A DNA stretch of 33,756 bases from a virus, in the IMG/VR virus record IMGVR_UViG_3300029787_000180, positions 1 through 33,756 of that record; one strand, 5' to 3'. Both the position numbers and the translations under genes were made by a program. The notes under the pieces are model-generated. The model did not search any database. It was not told where the DNA came from and worked only from the letters and a program-made list of their open reading frames with translations. Positions within the stretch are counted from its first letter, which is position 1; the number at the start of each line of letters is the position of its first letter. Of the stretch, positions 14,104-26,138 are shown piece by piece.

Positions 14104-14952
14104 CTATTCGTCACAAATAACATCAACGAGTGCATCAGTATCGATCACAACCGAACCCATTGAGAGCATTGCTGTAACCAAGAAAGATGTTTTCTCAGGG
14201 ATGTAATTTATTTCAGTTTTCGGCGCGATACCCACGGCACAACCAAGAGCCGAGCGATGGAAAGCAAAACAAGTCCGATCTCCCGAGGAAAGCGGCAAGC
14301 CACCCTCATCTCTGTCACCGACCACATGGAAGGTGAAACCGAGCATTGTATTGATTTGACCACCGACTAAAGCCTGTACAGTCTGAAAGTCGCTCGAAAT
14401 CGCTCTTTCATCACCAAGCAAGCCGGATAGGTTATTTGCATGAATGACGAAATGACGATCCGTTGCCGGAACGGACTTGGCATCAAGTGCTTTCTTTGCT
14501 GCGAGTATCTTACCAACATTTAGGTCAGAGTTCGCCGCACTTCCAGAAGTCACCACCGTTTTAGCGACCGTGGACCCGGCTGATGCGGTATTAAGTGCAT
14601 CAATCAAAATTTGGTCTTCTCTTCGACCGATTGCATTACCTACAACTTGCGCCAGCTCTTGACGCTCATCGAAGTTAATCTTTTGCTGATTGAAGATATC
14701 GCTATATTCAGCCGCTACGTAATCAGTCAATGAAACTGACACTTGGCTAAACGCTGCATTGATTGGCACTACATCTGTTTGGGGAACCCTAACGGATGCT
14801 TGGCCTTTTCCCACTTTGGGAAACTTTACGGTATCACCCACAACACCAGTTCGCATTCTTGCAGCTCCGCGAAGAACAGCCGCACCTTGGTAGGCTTGGT
14901 GAACTTCTGCTTCAAATAGCTGTACGAATGCCGGGGATAGGTTCGTACTCAT
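14104..14952 (-). CDS. Major capsid protein, 282 aa
   Basis: The shell protein of the head, with a fold expected to be HK97-like. The N-terminus begins with SPAFVQLFEAEVHQAYQ, followed by a basic/Val-rich loop (RTGVVGDTVKFPKVG, about residues 34-48), then VPQTDVVPINAAFS and a long helix with EYSDIFNQQKINFDERQELAQ (spine-helix-like). The C-terminus is a beta region (TEINYIPEKTSF). The ATG at 14952 has AGGA ten bases upstream. The gene sits after scaffold and a terminator, with a structured leader (14993-15056), which suggests separate and strong expression. Confidence 0.92.
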   Translation of the reverse strand: MSTNLSPAFVQLFEAEVHQAYQGAAVLRGAARMRTGVVGDTVKFPKVGKGQASVRVPQTDVVPINAAFSQVSVSLTDYVAAEYSDIFNQQKINFDERQELAQVVGNAIGRREDQILIDALNTASAGSTVAKTVVTSGSAANSDLNVGKILAAKKALDAKSVPATDRHFVIHANNLSGLLGDERAISSDFQTVQALVGGQINTMLGFTFHVVGDRDEGGLPLSSGDRTCFAFHRSALGCAVGIAPKTEINYIPEKTSFLVTAMLSMGSVVIDTDALVDVICDE

Positions 14953-14972
14953 TACGTTTTCCTATAATTAGG

Positions 14973-15089
14973 TTAAACGCCGTTTAGGTTGTCGGGAAAT
15001 CCCCGGCCTCTGGCTACGCGGCCCGTCCGCGCCCGGTGTATTTCTACACGCCAGAGCGGCCCGAGAGGGTTGTCGCTCAATTTTGCCAT
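14973..15089 (-). CDS. Possible 38-aa ORF overlapping the capsid leader RNA structure
   Basis: An open frame of 38 codons starts with ATG GCA AAA TTG and ends 20 bases before the capsid ATG. It would encode an Arg-rich peptide (WRVEIHRARTGRVARGRGF in its middle). There is no convincing Shine-Dalgarno, and its GC content is far above the neighbouring genes because of the stem sequences. It could be a leader peptide, but I favour the RNA structure as the constrained feature. Confidence 0.3.
   Translation of the reverse strand: MAKLSDNPLGPLWRVEIHRARTGRVARGRGFPDNLNGV
14993..15056 (-). ncRNA. Structured leader of the capsid mRNA: three-way junction plus hairpin
   Basis: Read on the minus strand, CTCTGGC (15056-15050) pairs with GCCAGAG (15014-15008). 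Inside are GTGTA-GAAA-TACAC (15049-15036), a perfect 5-bp hairpin with a GNRA tetraloop, then CGGG, then CGCGG-ACGGG-CCGCG (15031-15017), a second perfect 5-bp hairpin, then TA. This makes 17 perfect pairs in 49 bases arranged as a three-way junction. A further 4-bp hairpin (CGGG-GATTT-CCCG, 15005-14993) follows. The GNRA loop exists only in the minus-strand RNA, the sense of the capsid transcript. An 8-bp direct repeat GGTTGTCG (14987-14994 and 15068-15075) flanks the region. No known RNA family was recognised. Confidence 0.62.
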
Positions 15090-15134
15090 TATCACAGTAG
15101 GCGTATTATGTAAAGATACATATTGGTTATGCAC

Positions 15135-15162
15135 AAAAAAAATAGCCGCTGTTATGCGGCTA
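15135..15162 (-). terminator. Intrinsic terminator after the scaffold gene
   Basis: On the minus strand a perfect 7-bp stem TAGCCGC / GCGGCTA (15162-15156 with 15149-15143), loop ATAACA, is followed immediately by eight U (15142-15135). It lies 22 bases downstream of the scaffold stop and upstream of the capsid leader. It should separate capsid transcription from that of the packaging genes. Confidence 0.88.
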
Positions 15163-15184
15163 GTCTTGAGGCAATATTCACGAC

Positions 15185-15994
15185 CTAATTATATCTTCTT
15201 TCAAAATCCTTTTCAACATCTCGAGTAAATTTCATGTCAGTACCATATCGAGGATCAGACATTTTGCTTTGCATGGACCTCCTAAAGTCATCATCCGACA
15301 TTCCAGCCTCGGCTACATCAGCAATAGGTATTTGAGATAAATCACCTGTCATGCCACGCATTTTTTGCATAAGACGCTGACCAATCGCAGAGCCGCCCCA
15401 TACGTTCAACTCTTCACGTTCTTCTTTTGAAATCACGCCCTTTTTTTCCAAACCATCAGCCCAGTTAACATTTGAATTAACTATTGCGTCCGCATTTTGA
15501 CCCAATGCTTTTCGCTCACGCTCTACGTCTAGCTGTATTTGTGCAGTATTCTCACCCGACATTTCAACAATCTGTCCGGCCAGCTCATCAAATGCAGCCT
15601 GATTGATCCCGTACTTTGCCGCCCAGCTTTTATATGTTTCTATTATCGGATCATCGTCAGCGTATCCGGCTTCAGTGAGGGTGTTCATATTATACTCATC
15701 CGGCACTTTATGCTCACCGCCGCGCATTTTCTTTTCAAGCTCTTCATAACCTTTGACGAGGTTTTCTAGGTCCGGGCCTTCTTTTTCATCCCAGAATTTA
15801 TTTGGAAACCACTCCGGCCTTTCATAAATCTCGCTCTCGTCCTCTTCCGACTCGGATTCCGCATCTGCGCGGTGTTCAATAGTTTGACCTTCTTCACTTT
15901 CTTGCTCGGCCTCCATTGCCGCCGCTGCCATCAATCCATCAGGGGCCGGAGCTGCTTCAGCCTCGGTTGTGCCTTCAACTTCTTGATCACTCAT
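15185..15994 (-). CDS. Capsid assembly scaffolding protein, 269 aa
   Basis: Internal scaffold that directs procapsid assembly and then leaves. The first 60 residues are low-complexity and strongly acidic (Glu/Ala/Ser-rich). They are followed by the family pattern PEWFPNKFWDEKEG (about residue 60), LENLVKGYEELEKKMRGG and VPDEYNMNTL. A helical middle and a short basic C-terminus (FTRDVEKDFERRYN) complete the T7 gp9-like architecture. The ATG lies in an 8-base overlap with the upstream gene. The position between portal and capsid is canonical. Confidence 0.9.
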   Translation of the reverse strand: MSDQEVEGTTEAEAAPAPDGLMAAAAMEAEQESEEGQTIEHRADAESESEEDESEIYERPEWFPNKFWDEKEGPDLENLVKGYEELEKKMRGGEHKVPDEYNMNTLTEAGYADDDPIIETYKSWAAKYGINQAAFDELAGQIVEMSGENTAQIQLDVERERKALGQNADAIVNSNVNWADGLEKKGVISKEEREELNVWGGSAIGQRLMQKMRGMTGDLSQIPIADVAEAGMSDDDFRRSMQSKMSDPRYGTDMKFTRDVEKDFERRYN

Positions 15995-24632: not shown

Positions 24633-24808
24633 ATTTTTTTTCCTCTTATTTCACATTTGAACTCCGGCTGGAGTGTGAGGTTTGTTATTTCTTTTGCAGC
24701 GACCCGGGGCTTTAGTACGTGGTAATAGTGCTTCGCTTCGGCAACGCTATCGAAGGTTATTCCATCAACCGTTACCTTCTTGTTTTTGAACTTTGAAAAA
24801 CTAGGCAA
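24404..24808 (-). CDS. DUF1064-type nuclease, 134 aa
   Basis: The family pattern is clear: KFKNKKVTVDGITFDSVAEA (N-terminus), ITNLTLQPEFKCEI, YKADFSYFD and VVEDVKGFKTDIYRLKKKL. DUF1064 proteins are phage-encoded and thought to be endonucleases with a PD-(D/E)XK/Vsr-like fold; Glu in FDSVAEA, Asp in KADF and the VVEDVKG segment would form the site. The start is TTG at 24808, overlapping the ribbon-helix-helix stop; no ATG is nearby. It overlaps the DnaA-like frame over its last 229 bases. Confidence 0.85.
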   Translation of the reverse strand: MPSFSKFKNKKVTVDGITFDSVAEAKHYYHVLKPRVAAKEITNLTLQPEFKCEIRGKKICKYKADFSYFDKKKTGPDGQSGCQVVEDVKGFKTDIYRLKKKLVEALFPGTLILEISANGYRAAKYSLPSQSEVR

Positions 24809-24998
24809 CTGACCGTGCCGCTCTAGCTATGCGCGTTATACGGTAGTCGCTTTCATTCTCTTCTAAGCCAAGATGGTTGACGATAATGTCCTCCACAAAA
24901 CTCACGACAGTCATATTTCTTGCGGCGGCGGCATCGTGGATGCGTTCTTTTAGGGCAGGGTGCACCCTTATTATTATAGCACTCTGGTCAGTTGACAT
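24801..24998 (-). CDS. Ribbon-helix-helix (Arc/CopG-like) regulator, 65 aa
   Basis: A strand IIIRVHPALKERIHDAAAAR then a helix and VVSFVEDIIVNHLG form the ribbon-helix-helix arrangement: a short beta strand with alternating residues, a first helix, and a turn followed by a second helix. The start is ATG 24998; the longer frame to 25046 runs into the control region. GGA lies eleven bases upstream, so the ribosome-binding site is weak. As the first gene of the leftward arm, beside the divergent control region, it is a good candidate for the repressor of one or both arms. Confidence 0.75.
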   Translation of the reverse strand: MSTDQSAIIIRVHPALKERIHDAAAARNMTVVSFVEDIIVNHLGLEENESDYRITRIARAARSVA

Positions 24999-25066
24999 AA
25001 TTTTTTTCCAAAAAGTTACATAATGGTATTGTACACTTGATATCAACTATGCTAGGACGTGACTAG

Positions 25067-25144
25067 CGATACATTATAGATACAAGGGGAGTACATAAGA
25101 ATGAATTAGACGCTTGGTTAAACAAAAAGATTAAAGCCGATTAG
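25067..25144 (+). pseudogene. Small startless open frame, possible gene remnant
   Basis: A 25-codon open stretch between a TAG and a TAG reads through the 20-bp repeat as IIDTRGV in the same frame as the end of the 69-aa gene downstream (FIDTRGV), then continues HKNELDAWLNKKIKAD to a stop. It has no ATG, GTG or TTG. It looks like the 3' end of a gene whose 5' part was lost, or a duplication scar. Confidence 0.4.
25074..25093 (+). repeat. 20-bp direct repeat, copy 1
   Basis: Identical to 25345-25364 (begins TTATAGATAC, ends AGGGGAGTA) and lying 271 bases upstream of it. This copy is in the control region, and the two copies flank the 69-aa gene. Chance is unlikely at this length and distance. 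Confidence 0.85.
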
Positions 25145-25157
25145 AAAGGATGGATAA

Positions 25158-25367
25158 ATGAAAATTACAGTAAGCCTAACAATTGAGGTCAACCCCGAAT
25201 CTTACGCTGAGTGTTATGGGGAAGAGTACAACAAAAAAAACCACAACCAAGCTATTAAAGATGACGCCCATTATTGTGTCGAGCAATCTTTGACTGATTG
25301 GTTTGATCGAATTGGTTTTGAAGGTAAAGTCGTTAATCCTAAATTTATAGATACAAGGGGAGTATAA
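25158..25367 (+). CDS. Unknown small protein, 69 aa
   Basis: First gene of the rightward arm, with an AAAGGA Shine-Dalgarno seven bases upstream. The N-terminus is a beta strand (KITVSLTIEVNPES), followed by a polar Asn/Lys segment and a helix (HYCVEQSLTDWFDRIGF). It ends in IDTRGV, encoded by the second 20-bp repeat, which also supplies the ribosome-binding site of the recombinase. No family recognised. Being bracketed by direct repeats, it may be an inserted or excisable unit. Confidence 0.65.
   Translation: MKITVSLTIEVNPESYAECYGEEYNKKNHNQAIKDDAHYCVEQSLTDWFDRIGFEGKVVNPKFIDTRGV
25345..25364 (+). repeat. 20-bp direct repeat, copy 2 (contains the recombinase ribosome-binding site)
   Basis: This second copy encodes the last codons of the 69-aa protein, and its AAGGGGAG is the Shine-Dalgarno for the serine recombinase ATG at 25368. 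Possible explanations are a duplicated regulatory segment, recombinase sites or a recombination scar. Confidence 0.85.
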
Positions 25368-26138
25368 ATGTTTGAACGCAAAGACCACGGCCAGCCACAC
25401 AAGGGCAAATATGCCGCGTATGTGCGCGTAAGTACCGAAGAGCAAGACGTGGTTAATCAGGAACACGCTATCAAAGCGTACCTCAACGGCGGTGATTACA
25501 GTGTAAAGTGGTTCCGCGAAGAGGGCGTAAGTGCAGGGACTGATTGGAACGATCGGGATGAACTACATAGATGTTTAGATTACTGTCGCAAAGAAAAGGC
25601 TACGATGATCATTTACTCTGTAAGTCGTATGTCTCGGCGCACTTGGGAAACGCTGCGTTTCTTAGAGCAAGAAGTCAGTACGGGTAAAATCAAACTGGTA
25701 GTCGTAGACAACCCGAACCTTGATCATAAGACCATTGGGCTTCTCTCAGCCGTTGCAGAGATGGAAAGAACACAGATTAAAGAGCGTACAAAAGCAGCTC
25801 TCGGGCGCATCAAGGATGAGCTGGCTGAAAAAGGAAAGTACACCACGAAAGCGGGAAAGGTCGTAACAAAACTGGGCAACCCGACTAACTGGGCAGAAAC
25901 CCGCCAGCAAGGAGCGGACACCAAAAAAGAGCAAGCTGATGATCGAGCCGAGAATGTATGGCCGATTATCGAAAACCTCTTAACCCGTGGGCTGGGTTAC
26001 CGGGGAACAGCCCGACAGCTTAATCTCATGGCTATACCAACGCCAACCAAAGTAATGAAAGGAGACACCGCCAAGCGTACAGAATGGCACGCTAGTAGCG
26101 TCCGTAACTACGCCCTCAGAATGGGGTGGGTAAAATGA
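25368..26138 (+). CDS. Serine recombinase (resolvase/invertase family), 256 aa
   Basis: The catalytic domain starts KYAAYVRVSTEEQ with nucleophile Ser22, then WFREEGVSAGTDWNDRDEL, MIIYSVSRMSRR (arginines of the active site) and LLSAVAEMERTQIKERTKAAL (the long E helix). The C-terminal part (from about residue 195) has LLTRGLGYRGTARQLN and HASSVRNYALR, a helix-turn-helix-like reading of the DNA site. At 256 aa it is larger than a typical resolvase (about 185) and much smaller than large serine integrases, so it may act as an integrase-like, inversion or resolution enzyme. It overlaps the start spacing of the upstream gene (TAAATG). Confidence 0.92.
   Translation: MFERKDHGQPHKGKYAAYVRVSTEEQDVVNQEHAIKAYLNGGDYSVKWFREEGVSAGTDWNDRDELHRCLDYCRKEKATMIIYSVSRMSRRTWETLRFLEQEVSTGKIKLVVVDNPNLDHKTIGLLSAVAEMERTQIKERTKAALGRIKDELAEKGKYTTKAGKVVTKLGNPTNWAETRQQGADTKKEQADDRAENVWPIIENLLTRGLGYRGTARQLNLMAIPTPTKVMKGDTAKRTEWHASSVRNYALRMGWVK

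Follow-up and report, generated by a model that had tools for sequence, protein, structure and literature searches.

A structured, covarying leader RNA upstream of the major capsid gene in a group of mostly marine short-tailed phages

Introduction

The capsid protein is the phage protein needed in the largest amount, and few cis-acting phage leader RNAs are known. Here we ask what lies between the promoter and the major capsid protein (MCP) gene of virus record IMGVR_UViG_3300029787_000180, and what it may do for the capsid mRNA. The window, i.e., the stretch of DNA that was analyzed, is this whole 33,756-base record. An earlier reading from the letters alone (hereafter, the sequence-only reading) had proposed an undescribed three-way-junction RNA in the capsid leader, with a possible role in translation or stability or as a protein-binding site. 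It had named paired covariation in relatives as a check, and conservation due to a 38-aa reading frame as a refutation.

Locus and virus type

The minus-strand gene order is portal (PF12236), a small protein, a T7-type assembly protein (PF05396), MCP and tail genes. Between the assembly gene and the MCP gene lie, in minus-strand order, a terminator hairpin, a promoter-like TTTACA-15-GATAAT sequence and the junction RNA. The features of this interval are:

14104..14952, minus strand: MCP gene (Pfam Phage_capsid_2, PF19821; E 1.4e-67)
14960..14963, minus strand: Shine-Dalgarno AGGA of the capsid gene, read from the sequence
14978..15080, minus strand: leader RNA element (covariance model R1, 113.5 bits, with the window row in the training set)
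15088..15114, minus strand: putative sigma70 promoter of the capsid transcript, TTTACA-15-GATAAT (promoter scoring; relatives keep TTTACA..TATATN)
15143..15162, minus strand: intrinsic terminator that follows the scaffold gene and precedes the capsid promoter (terminator search)

The window also encodes an integrase, a replication initiator and an Arc-like repressor match, and no match to an RNA polymerase, Q or N was obtained among the 30 window proteins given to PHROGs. At positions 24801-26138, the Arc-like repressor match and an integrase/invertase accompany a T7-type podovirus gene set for which no polymerase match was obtained. The virus is probably temperate and related to lytic marine podoviruses.

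In the minimum-energy fold of the leader, the capsid Shine-Dalgarno lies inside a predicted hairpin at 14953-14982 (minus strand), CCUA/UAGG within GCGUUU/AAAACGU. By eye, this hairpin is common to the window and one relative (L005), and it is not general among relatives.

Fold of the leader and covariation in class 1

The leader is about 100 nt long, between promoter and MCP on the minus strand. The three-way junction with 17 pairs in 49 bases that had been reported is present as stated: positions 15056-15008 of the minus strand read CUCUGGC / GUGUA-GAAA-UACAC / CGCGG-ACGGG-CCGCG / GCCAGAG, giving 7, 5 and 5 pairs. Single-sequence folding of the 101-nt stretch was unexceptional (z = -0.70; 49 of 200 shuffles folded equally well or better), and folding of the 245-nt leader gave z = -2.87. 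Single-sequence thermodynamics (z = -0.70) prove nothing; the proof of the fold is comparative. The parts of the fold are as follows:

15054..15078, minus strand: module 1 (fold of the class-1 alignment, pair counts, descriptor)
15078-15074/15058-15054, minus strand: P1a of module 1 (RNAalifold and pair counts)
15073-15070, minus strand: strand X of module 1, ACAA, facing C 15059
15069-15067/15062-15060, minus strand: P1b of module 1 (RNAalifold and pair counts)
15011..15053 (15053-15050/15014-15011), minus strand: P2, 4-bp closing helix of the class-1 three-way junction, nearly invariant in class 1
15036..15049, minus strand: P3 hairpin GUGUA-GAAA-UACAC, GNRA loop 15044-15041 (two-sided changes in 3 of 5 pairs)
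15017..15031, minus strand: P4 hairpin CGCGG-ACGGG-CCGCG (loop ACGNN in class 1, CGUAA in the MEP301 class)
14986..15009, minus strand: module 2, mirror of module 1 (pair counts, descriptor)
15009-15007/14988-14986, minus strand: P5a of module 2, with C 15006 (pair counts, descriptor)
15005-15002/14996-14993, minus strand: P5b of module 2, with strand X ACAA at 14992-14989 (pair counts, descriptor)
14979..15014, minus strand: P6, GCC 15014-15012 with GGC 14981-14979, closing module 2 (anchored pair count)

A scan with the MCP returned 80 loci at 67-89% identity, 76 of which included the leader (63 distinct). Alignment A2 comprised 32 of the 39 class-1 leaders; L007, L042 and L044 were left out as too diverged, and L017, L043, L049 and L052 as near copies. 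From these 32 leaders RNAalifold recovered P1a, P1b, P2, P3, P4 and P5b unaided, and the named structure was paired in 98.6% of 880 cells, with two-sided changes in 12 of 28 pairs. The class-1 covariation score was 0.227 versus 0.085 +- 0.008 in shuffled alignments, none of 500 reaching it, and was at most 0.063 in slid versions. On four of the five measures, none of 500 shuffles came up to the class-1 pair counts, and each of the six slid versions fell short on every measure. The fifth measure, further pair types, did not stand out from the shuffles, 139 of 500 of which reached it. P2 and P1b, having nearly no variation in class 1, give little evidence alone.

These results showed that the leader is a structured RNA, covarying above shuffled and slid controls as expected of a cis-regulatory RNA, and that it is a genuine element, since relatives, mostly marine phages, keep the shape while the letters change. 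The structure proposed for the capsid-sense leader transcript is thereby borne out, and the paired covariation was found both in class 1 and in the MEP301 class (below). Other parts of the sequence-only reading needed redrawing. Only 4 bp (UGGC/GCCA) of its 7-bp closing stem are general, and the outer CUC pairs instead with an upstream GAG in P1a, a pairing that covaries at columns 3-28, 5-26 and 6-25 of A2. The junction is real, but the element continues past it on both sides, 15080-14978, and the GAAA loop, present in class 1, is not universal.

The MEP301 class and covariance searches

The MCP of Methylophilales phage MEP301 has 60% identity to the window MCP, and leaders of its class follow the same plan in other letters: P1a, a CAUA-like strand facing C, a hairpin, P3, P4 (CGUAA loop), AAGC and module 2. 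In alignment A3 (51 of 71 MEP301-class leaders), two-sided changes occurred in 13 of 16 pairs, and the score was 0.498 versus 0.195 shuffled. In A4, 21 of those leaders chosen for module 2 in register, such changes occurred in 16 of 24 pairs, with a score of 0.356 versus 0.141 shuffled. Neither score was reached in 500 shuffles.

Covariance models built from class 1 (R1) and from the MEP301 class (R2) join the classes through cross-matches at leaders. R1 found L076, L053, L080, L078, L055 and others at 31-67 bits, all at the leader, and found the L057 group weakly, also at the leader (23-24 bits, E about 0.02). The L055-class members L191 (40 bits) and L189 (24 bits) were found by R2, and both models found the leader of a 186-kb Hyphomicrobiales contig (L334; R1 35 bits, R2 33 bits), whose genome had a single match in 3.2 Mb. 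The MEP301 leaders escape R1, and the window leader escapes R2 (best 11.7 bits). Among 13 records searched with R1, 8 had a strong match, one each, before the MCP; those without were two of the L057 class, MEP301, Vibrio phage CKB-S2 and one cut at a contig end. R2 gave a single clear match in 13 of 14 records, one of them partial at the record end. An R2 scan of 199 genomes (order of G024) missed a known positive and carries no information.

MCP relatives occur on contigs assigned to many phyla, and since most of these contigs are metagenome bins, hosts beyond Methylophilales and Vibrio are weakly founded. Pelagibius litoralis (L338) is an isolate, and its variant leader was rejected by the descriptor described below.

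A core of twin mirrored modules

Judged from the aligned sequences, the conserved fold is two mirrored modules plus a variable middle domain, sited between the putative promoter and the capsid gene. The junction that had been taken for the element is this middle domain, absent from some lineages, and the conserved core is the pair of flanking modules. The 8-bp direct repeat that had been noted, GGTTGTCG on the plus strand at both 14987-14994 and 15068-15075, exists; rather than flanking an insertion, it represents the GACAACC/AYAAC strands of both modules.

Common to the classes are two hairpins in mirrored order, each with a 1x4 internal loop in which a C faces an AYAA-like strand. This strand is AUAA or ACAA in class 1 and the L055 class, CAUA, CUAA and similar in the MEP301 class, and ACAC, CCUA or AUAC in some genome contigs. 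The conserved unpaired letters are the AYAA/ACAA strands, the facing C, the ACGN or CGUAA loop and AAGC. Minimal forms, with little sequence between the modules, occur in CKB-S2 and L331.

An alignment-free descriptor, for which only the contrast with shuffles or random segments counts because its rules were fixed after viewing the leaders (genome set included), found both modules in 37/40 class-1 leaders (shuffles 1/400), 54/66 of the MEP301 class (13/660), some of these matches being register errors, and 17/17 of the L055 class (0/170). The corresponding counts were 9/24 for L053-81 (4/240), 9/21 for genome contigs (4/210), 1/11 for Vibrio and Pelagibacter phages (0/110) and 1/10 for others (3/100); random segments of the same loci gave 17/1177. 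Loci short of upstream DNA and identical leaders were left out of the descriptor and promoter counts. By the same descriptor, twin modules were found in 0 of 28 SI2-class leaders (shuffles 5/280), and Vibrio 1.138-like phages are close MCP relatives without the element. The SI2-like class (Dunaliella viridis virus SI2 and Rhodobacterales-associated contigs; L250-L296) has its own strongly conserved, different MCP leader, GAUGCAGACCC...GGCACCC...CAAGG..CCUUG, directly behind its promoter and upstream of the MCP.

P6 occurs as GCC/GGC, GC/GC, GU/AC, GUU/AAC, GCG/CGC, GCU/AGC and GUA/UAC. An anchored count found its pairs kept in 23/23, 23/23 and 15/23 leaders, versus 0 of 2000 shuffles, the 23 having been picked by patterns that include outer letters, which makes the first column circular. 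Automatic helix length was not discriminating for P6 (2.89 versus 2.70 shuffled), so its acceptance follows from the anchored count. Because P2 and P6 share bases 15014-15012, they are exclusive in class 1 or part of a more complex arrangement.

In the L055 class (L168-L191), the P1b loop is complementary to the joint that precedes module 2 (CUGUAACC/GGUUACAG, CUGGAAC/GUUUCAG), so that the two can pair. This pseudoknot reached at least 6 bp in 9 of 12 distinct rows versus 11.7% shuffled, and was unsupported in class 1 (2/28) and the MEP301 class (7/38).

Promoter, predicted start and terminators

The capsid promoter is missing from the consensus scanner list because the scanner limits spacing to 16-18. 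Promoter placement was scored in 126 leaders that have both modules and sufficient upstream DNA. In 91 of them the -10 of the best promoter ends 3-12 nt (mode 6) ahead of the first P1 base, compared with 16% for shuffled upstream DNA, and on this placement transcription is predicted to start at or just before P1; the best promoter lies elsewhere in 35. The window gap from -10 to P1 is 9 nt, which may leave about 2 unpaired 5' nt. Descriptor and promoter placement together put the two stem-loops close behind the promoter. Some class-1 loci (e.g., L002, L026) have a dyad in the -35/-10 spacer of the capsid promoter, about 170-185 nt upstream of the MCP; it is not obvious in the window. The dyad reads ACAAGC..GCTTGT, versus ACAACC..GGTTGT in the L026, L034 group, matched changes such as are expected of an operator.

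By a strict home-made finder, a terminator like that after the scaffold gene lies 187-263 nt upstream of the MCP in 20 of 43 loci sampled, and strong terminators at +900 to +1300 downstream were found in only 5 of 43. The window has a second terminator-like hairpin at about 13789 (minus strand), 1163 nt downstream of the MCP start, where a short gap precedes the tail gene at 13771-13139.

TTAACT is enriched in the last 55 nt before the MCP, in class 1 (11/34 versus 0.66 expected) and in L053-81 (13/19 versus 0.52), and is absent from the MEP301 class (0/55). We take this motif before the Shine-Dalgarno to resemble the T7 gene 10 translational enhancer.

Database and literature searches

Rfam 15 gave no match above the gathering cut-off for the window or for the loci of 16 relatives, as expected from the proposal of an undescribed RNA; at E<=10, positions 14900-15200 had only 4 sub-threshold chance matches. 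A blastn search of the leader against annotated phages gave only short chance matches (E 0.8 or worse), and no report of the leader was found in the open-licence PubMed Central literature. For the MEP301 paper (PMC8024684), a term search showed that 'promoter', 'terminator', 'non-coding' and 'intergenic' do not occur. The leader is apparently an undescribed family of structured cis-acting mRNA leader.

Candidate functions

Three readings fit these data: the leader may protect the 5' end together with a docking protein, act as an antiterminator in the manner of put, or be an operator for capsid autoregulation. We prefer the protector. Our working proposal, which we put forward tentatively and with less than even confidence, is that the leader is a cis-acting, 5'-terminal protein-docking RNA that protects and boosts the capsid mRNA, a mechanism that we infer and that agrees with the earlier guess of a translation, stability or protein site. 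Transcription would start at, or a few nt from, the first P1 base; the 5' end of the capsid mRNA would thus be born in or beside a helix and be gripped poorly by RppH and RNase E. The unpaired module letters and the P4 loop may dock a host or phage protein that gives further protection or aids translation. As a net outcome, the capsid mRNA, made from an insulated promoter of its own, would be long-lived and strongly translated, and the leader RNA probably keeps capsid production high.

The protector is preferred because the start is predicted at the stem, the site before the MCP is the sole one in records with a strong match, a terminator insulates the unit in 20 of the 43 loci sampled, TTAACT is present in some classes and the effect of 5' structure is known; covariation in two diverged classes also supports it. 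According to excerpts of PMC3997798, 5'-terminal structure stabilizes mRNA since RppH and RNase E need single-stranded 5' ends, and a 5'-end helix is proposed to hinder them in ompA and papA mRNAs; unlike the capsid leader, those stem-loops belong to bacterial genes and need no conserved loop letters. Counting against the protector is the conservation of the internal-loop letters, which calls for a binding partner, whereas a mere protector needs only a stem. Also against it are close MCP relatives lacking the element (SI2 class, Vibrio 1.138-like phages), the lack of TTAACT from the MEP301 class and the 35 leaders whose best promoter lies elsewhere.

Two other phage leaders bear comparison. 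The T7 gene 10 (major capsid) leader is alike in being a short-tailed phage capsid mRNA leader with a 5' stem-loop, and its TTAACTT-like enhancer before the Shine-Dalgarno has a counterpart in some leader classes. Its stem is short and simple and its promoter belongs to the phage polymerase, whereas the window-type leader has about 100 nt, a covarying multi-helix fold and conserved internal loops. The PHIKZ p40 RNA is likewise a structured phage mRNA 5' UTR, of about 180 nt, but it belongs to a giant phage and another gene and has no comparative family or assigned function (PMC8545117).

By architecture, the nearest known mechanism is that of the HK022 put RNA, about 70 nt with two stem-loops just downstream of PL (PMC9378689, in excerpt). 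By analogy, the two nascent stem-loops of the capsid leader could dock on RNA polymerase, so that pauses and terminators are ignored through the structural operon, which we regard as possible but doubtful. Both RNAs are short and structured, start a phage transcript and have an internal-loop stem-loop pair, and put acts in cis without a ligand domain, as is proposed for the capsid leader. According to the same excerpts (PMC9378689), put lies on the early PL and PR transcripts and has a stem I with triplex and bulge; the capsid leader, unlike put, lies on the capsid transcript and has mirrored 1x4 loops and an extra P3/P4 domain. The promoter-proximal pair of conserved internal-loop hairpins favors this antiterminator, as do the apparent use of host RNA polymerase by the window virus (no polymerase or Q/N match), the window terminator 1163 nt after the MCP start, which would have to be overcome, and the variety of hosts, which would be expected with a universal enzyme as partner. 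However, strong terminators downstream are rare (5 of 43 loci), and the element was not found before early genes in any record searched. Searches for homology with HK022 put were negative: R2 had no match in HK022, and the best R1 match, at 14 bits and not significant, lay inside a tail region; these are leader-side models only, which leaves room for remote homology.

We consider it unlikely that the leader is an operator for autogenous control, in which unassembled capsid protein (or a partner) would bind the twin modules and repress its own translation. The single copy at the capsid leader only, in records with a strong match, two mirrored sites that suit a dimer and the predicted hairpin over the window ribosome-binding site just downstream all fit such an operator. 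Nevertheless, the element is present at only 40% MCP identity (CKB-S2) and absent from closer relatives (SI2, 47%), the Shine-Dalgarno hairpin is not general, and we know of no case in which a capsid protein with the HK97 fold binds RNA.

Less probable still is a two-state switch in class 1, in which P2 (UGGC/GCCA) and P6 (GCC/GGC) would compete in response to a ligand or protein. In its favor, class 1 has an almost unchanging P2, P6 covaries across classes and both use 15014-15012, but other classes keep P6 without P2, and no conserved expression platform (terminator or exposed/hidden Shine-Dalgarno) was found.

Finally, a coding or DNA-level element, i.e., a leader peptide or a mobile repeat with target duplication, is scarcely credible even though a short out-of-frame ORF (40 codons) starts in the window leader and the direct repeat is such as target duplication would leave. 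The coding explanation is ruled out for the relatives studied: none of six frames is open in all 32 A2 rows (at most 8/32 sense, 22/32 antisense), so conservation is not due to the 38-aa reading frame, no frame is open across all rows of A3, and class-1 leader lengths (100-107 nt) vary by 1-2 nt, including single-nucleotide changes. The mobile repeat is ruled out because the repeat belongs to the fold and the element lies at one place in all relatives.

Significance

The leader puts a structured RNA on the most abundantly needed gene of a large, mostly marine group of short-tailed phages, and the element persists in phages whose MCP identities range from about 40 to 90%. MEP301 and CKB-S2 each provide one cultured representative. 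If the operator reading were true, it would be, to our knowledge, the first RNA-based capsid dosage control in tailed phages. A further conjecture, to which we give limited credence, is that the leader represents a new class of phage RNA whose twin 1x4-loop modules make direct contact with a host machine found in all bacteria, either RNA polymerase or the 30S ribosome. It would then boost or antiterminate late transcription by RNA alone, with no sequence relationship to put. If this were true, the same leader would serve capsid genes in hosts of several bacterial classes, and docking on polymerase or ribosome would make it a compact RNA tool for raising late expression across many hosts.
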